The position numbers were made by a program, and so were the translations under genes. From NCBI RefSeq assembly GCF_022129235.1, contig NZ_JADQAI010000004.1, forward strand, positions 62,001 to 126,000: a stretch of 64,000 bases of DNA. The letters are read 5' to 3'. This document shows, in pieces, positions 19,853 through 22,802 of this stretch (position 1 is its first letter; every line of letters begins with the position of its first letter). The notes beneath the pieces are model-generated. The model searched no databases. It was not told where the DNA came from and worked only from the letters and a program-made list of their open reading frames with translations. This DNA is from Psychrobacter sp. Ps6. GTDB taxonomy: Bacteria > Pseudomonadota > Gammaproteobacteria > Pseudomonadales > Moraxellaceae.

Positions 19853-19877
19853 ATAATGGTTACTAGCAAACCATTAT
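19853..19877 (-). other. Hairpin overlapping the recA stop codon
   Basis: ATAATGGTT and AACCATTAT pair perfectly across a seven-base loop, and the arm covers the recA stop codon. There is no T run, so it is not a classical terminator. It could reduce read-through into recX or protect the recA message. Confidence 0.4.
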
Positions 19878-20926
19878 TGTACAGATTCAGGTGCCAGTTC
19901 TACATCGTCAGTTTCAGGCGCTTTGCTATCTTTTTTCGTACCAAGTTTTTCGTCACGAATTTTATCTTCGATCTCTTTGGCAATAGCAGGGTTTTCTTTT
20001 AAGAATAGGACAGAGTTCGCTTTACCTTGACCGATTTTTTCATCGCCATAGCTGTACCATGAACCTGCCTTACCAACCGCGCCAATCTCGACGCCCAAGT
20101 CAATCACTTCAGCCAAATGGTTGGTACCTTCGCCATAAGTAATTTCAAACTCAGCTTGGCGGAAAGGTGGTGCCATTTTGTTTTTGATGACTTTGACACG
20201 GGTTTGGTTACCGATGATCTCATCACCATTTTTGACCGCGCCAATGCGGCGAATGTCCATACGGACAGAGGCGTAAAACTTAAGGGCATTACCACCAGTT
20301 GTAGTCTCTGGGCTACCAAACATAACACCAATTTTCATACGGATTTGGTTAATAAACACAACCATACAATTAGAGCGTTTGGCATTACCAGTAATCTTAC
20401 GTAGCGCTTGGCTCATCAGACGCGCTTGCAGACCCATGTGTGAGTCACCCATCTCGCCTTCAATTTCTGCACGCGGAGTCAAGGCAGCAACTGAGTCAAT
20501 AACGATCATATCGATCGCGCCTGAACGCACGAGCATGTCAGTAATTTCAAGCGCTTGCTCACCGTTATCAGGTTGCGATAGTAGTAAGTCATCGGTATTG
20601 ACGCCCAGCTTGCGTGCATACACAGGGTCAAGCGCATGCTCAGCATCGATAAACGCACAGGTGCCGCCTTGTTTTTGACACTCTGCGATTGCTTGCAAGG
20701 TCATTGTGGTTTTACCTGAGCTCTCAGGGCCGTAGATCTCGATGATACGACCTTTTGGCAATCCACCAATACCAAGTGCGATATCTAGACCAAGAGAACC
20801 TGTTGAGACCACATCGGCATCAAGAATGGCTGAATCATCACCCAGATGCATGATGGTATTTTTACCAAATTGCTTTTCAATTTGACCTAATGCCGCTTTG
20901 AGGGCTTTGGCTTTATTGTCGTCCAT
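19874..20926 (-). CDS. recA: Recombinase RecA
   Basis: DNA recombinase and co-protease. The 350 aa protein has Walker [29 protein letters not shown] (Walker B/L1 region), [20 protein letters not shown] (L2) and an acidic C-terminal tail ([13 protein letters not shown]). It begins [21 protein letters not shown], as expected, with AAGGAATCC upstream. The ~1 kb upstream gap holds its promoter. I could not recognise a LexA box there, in keeping with reports that Moraxellaceae lack canonical LexA. Confidence 0.98.
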
Positions 20927-21405
20927 ACTGGATTCCTTTTTTGATAATTGATTTGGCGCTATAGATAAAAGATTTATACGTCTAAGAGTGATAACTGGTG
21001 CATACTGAGCAGCGCTAGTAAGGTAAATAACATAGCTATTAGCGCTCTGACAACTGGCTTAAATAAACAGGTTGTCATACGACTGCTATCAGTAGTAATA
21101 TCGAGATATCGCTCTACTATACAGTAAAATTAAATAACGAGAGAAGTAAAAATAAGTTCATAATCAATCACAGTTACAATAGATTTTGAGTCGGATATTG
21201 ATGACTAATAGTTATCTGAGTCTCTGTAATGCTATTGATTCGATAGAGTGATTATAACAAAATCCAAGCGCTATATTGAGTCTTGGACGACGCTAAACGA
21301 CACTGAATGTCGTACGATATAAGAGTGAGGATTCACGAAGATAGCCATTTGTTCAAATGTGTTTTTGAACCTGATAACAGCTATGTTTGTCAATAGACTT
21401 ATGAG

Positions 21406-21414
21406 TTGTCCACA
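21406..21414 (+). promoter_or_regulatory. DnaA-box-like 9-mer TTGTCCACA
   Basis: One mismatch from the consensus TTATCCACA. It is embedded in the near-palindrome GTTGTCCACAAC on the left side of the AT-rich tract. Confidence 0.45.
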
Positions 21415-21612
21415 ACAAATAATGTGTTTATTTTTATTGATTGTGAAACATTATAAACGGCTAAATTATTTTTGAAAATATTTAAAATAATTTTTTATGG
21501 CTTTGTATTTGATATAAGTATTTGATTTAAAATAATTTTTTAATTGTACAAAAAATGAACGATTTTACCTTATCCTTTAAGTTTCCTAGGCATATAGTTG
21601 TCAAGTGGTGAC

Positions 21613-21621
21613 TTATACACA
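21613..21621 (+). promoter_or_regulatory. DnaA box TTATACACA
   Basis: Exact match to the consensus TTATNCACA, 12 bases start-to-start before the next box in the same orientation. Confidence 0.6.
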
Positions 21622-21624
21622 GGG

Positions 21625-21633
21625 TTATCCACA
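21625..21633 (+). promoter_or_regulatory. Perfect DnaA box TTATCCACA
   Basis: Exact match to the high-affinity DnaA box, in tandem with the preceding TTATACACA and about 70 bases right of the AT-rich tract. Confidence 0.65.
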
Positions 21634-21901
21634 GCTTATGGGGAGAACTCTCGAAGCCCTTATGGTATCTATGCTTGCGTGTATAGGTTATATATTGCAA
21701 GCTTCCAATGTTGTGTGTCAAAGATGATTTTTCATCGACAAATGGGGCCCTAGGCGCTATGTTTCACATAATTACAATTTATGATTCTTTCACGTATTAC
21801 CATACTATAGGGCTTTGAAGTCAAGAGTATGACGAGATAAAAGCAACCAACGACCCGCTAAGCATATTTATAGCCATGATAGCAAGCTTATAAACGGGCA
21901 C

Positions 21902-21933
21902 AAAAAAGCGGCTAAATAGAATAGCCGCTTTGT
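21902..21933 (-). terminator. Intrinsic terminator after trmB
   Basis: AAGCGGCTA and TAGCCGCTT form a nine-base-pair stem with a seven-base loop. On the minus strand the stem runs into TTTTTTG. Lies 30 bases beyond the trmB stop. Confidence 0.85.
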
Positions 21934-21962
21934 CAAAATTATCGATAGCAAGATTGTGTTTG

Positions 21963-22802
21963 TTAGTCTTTGATATAGATCAAATCCCAGACCCCGTGAC
22001 CACGCTCAAGACCGCGACGCTCAAACTTGGTCATTGGACGAAAGTCAGGACGGTCGGTAAAGTTGCCTGCGCCTGCTTTATTGGTCAATCCAGCAAAACC
22101 ATCCAATACCTCAACCATCCAAAATGCATAATGCTCCCAGTCAGTGGCTGTATGAAACCAACCGCCTTGTTTTAGACTGCGCGTAACGATAGCCATACGC
22201 TCAGGACTGACGAAACGGCGTTTGTAATGACGCTTCTTTTGCCATGGATCAGGAAAGTATAGCTGAATACGGTCAATATGATTTTCTGGTAGTTGCTTCA
22301 GCAATTGAATAGCGTCGCCATTGATGATTTTGACATTGCTTAAGTCTTGCGTTCCTGCCATGTAAGCGCATTTACCAATACCTGGCTCGTGCACTTCGAC
22401 ACCGACGAAATTGCGCGTGGGCTCTGCGGCTGCCATCTCGATAAATGAATCACCCAAACCAAAACCAATCTCTAAGGTCAGCGGTGCGTCAGAACCATTC
22501 GGGCTATCAGCGAACAATGCTCGCAAGTCATCAATACCTGAAAGGTCGCCATCGCCGAAACTGTTATTGACCAAATACTCAGAAAATTCTGGTGCGGTGA
22601 GTGCTAGCTCGGCGTTTTTGTTCATATGCGTGCGCCGTTTCATGAACGTATTAACGATGCGAATGTGTTTGTCAGAGCTAGGTTCAATCTCTTGGCTAGC
22701 GTTTGCAGCCGTATCGATAGGCGCACTAGTATTATTAGAGGTTTGCTCATCAGTAGTATCATTACTATTGATGCTGTCATTGATATCAGAATGTTGACTC
22801 AT
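21963..22802 (-). CDS. trmB: tRNA (guanine46-N7)-methyltransferase TrmB
   Basis: Makes m7G46 in the tRNA variable loop. The SAM motif [33 protein letters not shown], the catalytic-region [19 protein letters not shown] and the C-terminal [17 protein letters not shown] are all clear. Length 279 aa includes an N-terminal ~45-residue Ser/Asn/Asp/Thr-rich extension before the family starts at [13 protein letters not shown]. The RBS at the called ATG is weak. A later ATG within the family region (MKRRTHMNK) would remove the extension. Confidence 0.94.

Follow-up and report, generated by a model that had tools for sequence, protein, structure and literature searches.

The recA-trmB gap and the layout of the element

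The DNA analyzed here, referred to as the window, is a 64-kb stretch (C114:62001-126000) of the 3.48-Mb Psychrobacter draft genome G000. In the window, recA and trmB are separated by 1,036 bases (20927-21962), in line with the gene-free interval of about 1 kb reported in a preliminary description of this DNA. The gap contains no open reading frame of at least 70 amino acids, except for one that enters trmB from the gap's last 33 bases, and an Rfam search of positions 20900 to 22000 with E values up to 1 yielded no match to a structured RNA. An extremely AT-rich tract at 21440-21560 had also been proposed; its A+T content is 84%, and the five most AT-rich 121-base segments of the 64 kb start at 21425-21436. 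The three DnaA boxes named in the same description, TTGTCCACA, TTATACACA and TTATCCACA, are present on the plus strand (Table 1), and the starts of TTATACACA and TTATCCACA are indeed 12 bases apart. Box cluster and AT-rich tract are thus real, but they constitute half of a larger element, of which the IHF site, the Fis site and an inverted third box had been missed. Along 21515-21647, the order is IHF consensus, Fis consensus, box III, box II and inverted box I. The IHF and Fis strings are those given in PMC4245941 and PMC8682772. Read from III to I, the core is TTATACACA-GGG-TTATCCACA-GCTTA-TGGGGAGAA. A search of the window with profile R1 (described below) at E values up to 10 gave a single match, which was the element. 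Judged by its sequence, the stretch appears to have been built with precision as a place where DnaA and two DNA-bending proteins dock.

Table 1. Features of the recA-trmB region in window coordinates; distances are counted from box III
Feature	Position	Strand	Remarks
recA	19874-20926	-	TIGR02012, 552 bits; neighbor of the element on one side
Fourth DnaA box TTGTCCACA	21406-21414	+	8 of 9 matches to TT[A/T]TNCACA; -207
AT-rich tract	21425-21560	.	holds the IHF and Fis consensus sites
GTGAAACAT motif	21443-21451	+	in 72 of 78 genus loci
Whole IHF-Fis-core element	21514-21649	+	profile R1, 100.2 bits
IHF-binding consensus TAAGTATTTGATT	21515-21527	+	TAAnnnnTTGATW, 0 mismatches; -98; predicted
Fis-binding consensus GTACAAAAAATGAAC	21546-21560	.	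GnnYAnnnnnTRnnC, 0 mismatches; -67; predicted
DnaA box III TTATACACA	21613-21621	+	
DnaA box II TTATCCACA	21625-21633	+	3 bp past box III
DnaA box I, inverted, degenerate	21639-21647	-	TTCTCCCCA on the minus strand, 7 of 9 matches; 5 bp past box II
trmB	21963-22802	-	TIGR00091, 165 bits; neighbor of the element on the other side

Two other features of the gap were noted. An inverted copy of the GTGAAACAT motif, ATGTTTCAC, is located at 21759-21767, and the two inverted motifs lie about 310 bp apart, one on either side of the element; the motif resembles a parS half-site, and GTGAAACA likewise resembles parS. Further conserved blocks at 21093-21152 and 21233-21312 lie closer to recA than the element does. 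ACGACA...TGTCGT forms an inverted repeat in one of them, which also has minus-strand hexamers similar to TATAAT, and the two blocks are perhaps the promoter and operator region of recA.

Conservation within the genus and separation from recA

Single DnaA boxes are not enriched: TTWTNCACA was found 8 times in the window against 8.5 expected, and TTATMCACA 39 times in the genome against 33 in the reversed control. For the tandem pair, about 0.003 occurrences are expected from base composition in 3.48 Mb, and one was found in the window's genome. The preliminary description had listed a lack of the boxes in related genomes among the findings that would speak against it; they proved to be conserved, with the pair present in 103 of 105 genus genomes and absent from the reversed control of each. 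The two genomes without it (G081 and G086) are 77% and 92% complete, and G086 retains two partial DNA matches. Alignment of 58 non-identical loci revealed a conserved block at about 21387-21690, flanked by poorly conserved DNA. The register was then counted over 78 distinct genus loci. The IHF consensus with at most one mismatch occurs at -96 to -101 in 77 of them (at -98 in 73) and is free of mismatches in 60, the Fis consensus stands at -67 with no mismatch in 74, and box I has 7 or 8 of 9 matches in all 78. A fourth box (8 or 9 matches, plus strand, -225 to -190) was found in 65 loci; the other 13 have none with at least 8 matches. One more Psychrobacter record (L093) has the same element and a recA 98% identical over 330 residues to that of the window. 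A record titled Streptomyces cinereus (L095) is probably contaminated, because its recA is 82% identical to the window's.

The position of the element could suggest that DnaA, IHF and Fis regulate recA transcription. In all 60 loci of a first set (L033-L092, from 59 genomes), the pair was located by motif 402 to 836 bp upstream of recA, with trmB on the far side in 59 and a contig end in the remaining one. In 20 further genus loci (L229-L248) from 16 more genomes, recA is still a neighbor in 9 and trmB in 13, so that recA adjoins the element in 69 of the 80 genus loci read. However, three of these loci (L237, L242 and L243) have neither recA nor trmB within 2.1 kb, and four genomes (G040, G045, G047 and G056) carry two copies of the element, with recA absent from the stretches of about 8 kb around both. 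Copy A adjoins trmB (tblastn) on one side and rlmH on the other (by a profile match in L229 and by eye in the other three). Copy B lies between genes for a PfkB-family kinase and a histidine phosphatase (profiles for L230, by eye in the other three); where one contig carries both copies, as in three of the genomes, they are 123 to 137 kb apart. A Psychrobacter recA with 6 kb of upstream DNA (L094) gave no R1 match up to an E value of 10; trmB was not found on this contig piece. The promoter-like blocks nearer to recA are separate from the element, and outside the genus the element stands next to unrelated genes in other genera, for instance with an SLT transglycosylase gene on one side and ttcA on the other in an Acinetobacter-like locus (L177) and with an SLT gene beside it in genus g7 (L199). 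Since four genomes have a copy next to trmB without recA, control of recA is very improbable. Its separation from recA in several genomes, and from the recA-proximal blocks, likewise led us to reject a recA leader or promoter element. At the class level, elements of two different families lie near priA and a globin gene (L309, priA by profile; L320, priA by eye); the window has priA as well, at a distance of 7 kb.

Distance from dnaA and reach beyond the genus

The preliminary description had seen the layout of a replication origin in the AT-rich tract next to DnaA boxes and offered a DnaA-regulatory or titration site as the more cautious reading. The cautious, DnaA-regulatory part holds, but the origin fails on the location of dnaA, on GC skew and on distance. 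In G000, dnaA is located at C1:74766, on a contig other than C114, and an AT-rich gap within 450 bp upstream of it carries four TTATCCACA boxes (C1:74350-74584). We regard this gap, by eye between rpmH and dnaA, as oriC; it has DnaA boxes and AT-rich DNA in common with the element, but it adjoins dnaA and its box layout differs. GC skew in the window is positive in 10 of 10 2-kb steps to the left of the site and in 19 of 21 to the right, and near zero at the site, without a switch. In a one-contig relative (G066), sampled as 20 stretches of 20 kb, skew is positive over the first 1.46 Mb and, except at 1.92 Mb, negative between 1.6 and 3.04 Mb. Its sign thus changes at dnaA, where the skew origin lies, and near 1.5 to 1.6 Mb, not at the element. 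The element of G066 is 571 kb from dnaA; the surrounding 20 kb have an overall skew of -0.046, one side being close to zero, and show nothing comparable to the switch at dnaA. Because dnaA lies on another contig with boxes of its own, skew does not switch and 571 kb separate element and dnaA in the relative, the site is not oriC, and a chromosomal or accessory origin can practically be dismissed. A different cluster of four TTATMCACA boxes within 241 bp (L007 1260-1560; G000 C1:67536-67776) was observed 7 kb from dnaA, in a gap between two riboflavin-type genes (named by eye); these boxes are mixed with parS-like TTTCATGTGAAACA sequences.

The distance to dnaA was expressed as a fraction of the chromosome, whose size was in most cases taken to the nearest 0.1 Mb; G596 was left out for its broken dnaA match. 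Among the matches listed, the distance amounts to 0.17-0.28 for 16 elements of 13 genus genomes, 0.22-0.31 for seven elements of five Acinetobacter-like genomes and one other family genome, and 0.20-0.50 for 16 elements of the order. At the class level, 6 of 13 placed elements among the matches listed lie within 0.08 of dnaA; therefore, the origin-distant position characterizes the family and order samples and not the class in general. In closed or nearly closed genomes, the element read from III to I points with fork movement in 16 of 16 genus and 6 of 7 other family elements; the figures are 14 of 16 for the order and 5 of 13 at the class level, all counts ignoring shared descent.

To follow the element further, we used R1, a sequence-only profile of 37 elements of the family, mainly Psychrobacter rows and with E. 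coli excluded. Counting matches at E values of at most 0.001, with weak ones included and with some nearer genomes contained in the wider samples, R1 detected the element in 291 of 299 family genomes (16 of 16 genera), 236 of 244 order genomes (110 of 113 genera), 162 of 185 class genomes and 134 of 200 phylum genomes, 48 of these 134 being labeled as the same class or closer. The matches listed for the other 86 include both strong, full-length ones and weak or core-only ones. Because Psychrobacter rows dominated the training of R1, a genome that it misses may still carry the element. The order is that of GTDB, which we take to be Pseudomonadales (Moraxellales in NCBI), and we infer that genus g15 is Acinetobacter. 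Applied with default filters to 1.33 Mb from 100 loci, R1 gave good matches to two Psychrobacter elements and to L099, a gammaproteobacterial metagenome-assembled genome (47.5 bits); the highest score outside elements was 8.9 bits, compared to 100 at the window element. A profile built from genus rows only recovered every one of the 50 loci fetched from outside the genus (29.9 to 62 bits), while reversed decoys scored at most 3.7 bits and 1.19 Mb of other DNA, apart from L099, at most 9.4 bits. In all 50, box I has at least 7 matches; 43 carry IHF (at most one mismatch) between -96 and -101, and 42 carry a mismatch-free Fis site between -65 and -67, an agreement to be expected because these loci had been fetched as the best R1 matches.

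A less biased test employed 32 tandem pairs from 30 loci outside the genus (L192 and L205 give two pairs each), selected solely by the presence of the pair. In 13 of them, an inverted box I follows at +26. IHF or Fis is in place in 11 of these 13 (both in 9), several of which are close relatives of one another, compared to 0 of the 19 pairs without box I; L181 and L195 have box I and lack both sites. In shuffled upstream DNA, IHF appeared in 0.9%, Fis in 0.25% and both in 0.004%. Box I has 7 to 9 of 9 matches in 52 loci elsewhere (L285-L336, of which L285, L290 and L325 belong to the same family), and weak box III sequences are common outside the family. A DnaA-titration site without catalytic effect was also considered. 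Titration would account for three or four clustered and conserved boxes, but it has no need of fixed IHF and Fis sites or of an inverted box I, which it alone does not explain, and three or four boxes are few against 39 TTATMCACA sites in the genome; we consider it quite improbable. Multiple matches were also seen: one order genome has four listed R1 matches in tandem, about 410 to 440 bp apart (G510:C33:42635-44050), and family f223, of the same phylum and not labeled as the same class, has up to nine per genome among the matches listed (e.g., G748), many of them near full length.

A DARS-type reading compared with E. coli DARS1, DARS2 and datA

DARS1 and DARS2 of E. coli have a three-box core with equal spacing, in which box I is oriented opposite to II and III (PMC5742627). 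The III-3-II-5-I spacing with inverted box I at 21613-21647 is the same as theirs. The DARS1 core reads TAATACACA-TGG-TTATCCACA-GGAAT-AGTGGATAA and the DARS2 core TTCTTCACA-ACT-CTATCCACA-GAAAA-GGTGAATAA; box I has 8 of 9 matches in both, compared to 7 of 9 in the window. The DARS2 core was placed from the deletion primers quoted in PMC4585315, which put boxes I to III at about 2969135-2969170 and ruled out a box cluster at NC_000913 2969485 as the core. This second III-3-II-5-I-like cluster (about 2969450-2969485; L226), between the DARS2 core and mutH, scored 10.9 bits with R1. R1 aligned DARS1 with 24.9 bits (model positions 33-137), DARS2 with 17.7 bits (3-134) and datA with 13.7 bits over part of the model (58-125).

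We therefore assign the element, with a probability of roughly 0.7, to the DARS type, that is, to DnaA-reactivating sequences that would convert ADP-DnaA to ATP-DnaA. This reading is based on the shared core spacings, on the scores of DARS1 and the DARS2 core with a profile built without E. coli against a background of 8.9 bits, on the company of IHF or Fis with inverted box I in 11 of 13 pairs versus 0 of 19, on the recovery of 50 of 50 loci outside the genus by genus rows only, and on the position of the genus elements at 0.17-0.28 of the chromosome from dnaA together with the presence of a Fis gene in the genome (103.4 bits; cutoff, 99). Counted against it are the degenerate box I of the genus (7 or 8 of 9), a Fis/IHF order unlike that of E. 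coli DARS2, the 98-bp IHF spacing shared with datA, the often weak box III outside the family, and the 6 of 13 class elements near dnaA.

The main rival is a datA-like site, at which DnaA flanking an IHF bend would hydrolyze its ATP (DDAH) and lower ATP-DnaA, because in datA, too, the IHF site (TAACCTATTGATA) starts 98 bp ahead of a DnaA box, and because most genus loci (65 of 78) retain a fourth box beyond IHF. The IHF consensus (21515) is accordingly placed between DnaA boxes (21406 and 21613), as in datA, where boxes 7, 2 and 3 surround the single IHF site (PMC5742627) and which promotes ATP hydrolysis (PMC8682772). However, the cluster downstream of IHF shows DARS spacing, whereas datA has TTATTCACA-3-inverted box and no third tandem box, and its R1 alignment is partial. 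Moreover, 13 of 78 genus loci have no fourth box of at least 8 matches, and datA is near oriC (PMC4585315), in contrast to the genus elements. A datA-like function is thus unlikely.

For a DARS-type element, events can be proposed by analogy with E. coli. Boxes III and II would be occupied by adjacent ADP-DnaA molecules, and a further one would bind box I head to head; IHF would bend the DNA at -98 and Fis would bind at -67, shaping the complex such that the DnaA molecules on II and I could meet. Their head-to-head contact would loosen ADP, and apo-DnaA would depart and take up ATP, with ATP-DnaA rising before the next initiation. We infer from the work on E. coli (PMC4245941, PMC8682772 and PMC5742627) that the proteins would bind, that DnaA would exchange its nucleotide and that initiation would respond. 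A DnaA-like frame of 268 residues at G000 C114:269535 (50 bits) would fit as a candidate for Hda.

The details of DnaA reactivation are known from E. coli, and its near relatives are described as sharing the process. With a conserved element that can be searched for and that most of the family, order and class genomes sampled contain, the generality of DnaA nucleotide-exchange control becomes testable, for instance in Acinetobacter baylyi and Pseudomonas putida. Exact coordinates for mutants are supplied, and the fixed register limits structural models of an IHF-Fis-DnaA complex. A search of open-access papers by title and abstract opening brought up no description of a DARS for Psychrobacter, Acinetobacter or Pseudomonas; PMC4245941 ties the DARS2 core to gammaproteobacteria related to E. 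coli. The kind of element is known, while its register, with Fis within the spacer between IHF and core, and its breadth appear to be new.

E. coli DARS2 (rppH-mutH region, 455 bp) resembles the element in its III-3-II-5-I core, in which box I is likewise inverted, in the presence of consensus sites for both IHF and Fis flanking the core at its box III end, and in its location away from oriC, but its gene neighbors differ. By consensus search, which may differ from the published coordinates, the IHF-like sites of DARS2 stand at -87 and -71, with one mismatch each, and a Fis site without mismatch lies farther out than IHF, at -125; the order is hence core-IHF-Fis, whereas in the element Fis (-67) lies between IHF (-98) and the core. 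Given the order core-Fis-IHF, the element is a DARS variant and not a strict DARS2. In DARS1 (bioD-uvrB, 101 bp), the core is the same, TAATACACA-TGG-TTATCCACA being nearly identical to the window pair, and the R1 alignment places a Fis-site-like AGTTAAAAAATAAAA upstream; relative to R1, however, DARS1 has a 28-base insertion, and the IHF part has no R1 match. DARS1 works without protein factors (PMC4585315). The odds are about even that IHF(-98)-Fis(-67)-III-II-I is an ancestral DnaA-reactivation module of Gammaproteobacteria. If so, there would usually be one or a few per genome, beside different genes by genus; the rigid register would mean a single defined IHF-Fis-DnaA complex; and, for Psychrobacter and the family it belongs to, the location of the element between one third and three fifths down the replichore could time ATP-DnaA production by gene dosage. 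DARS1 and DARS2 would then be altered descendants of this module, and E. coli would therefore be the exception.
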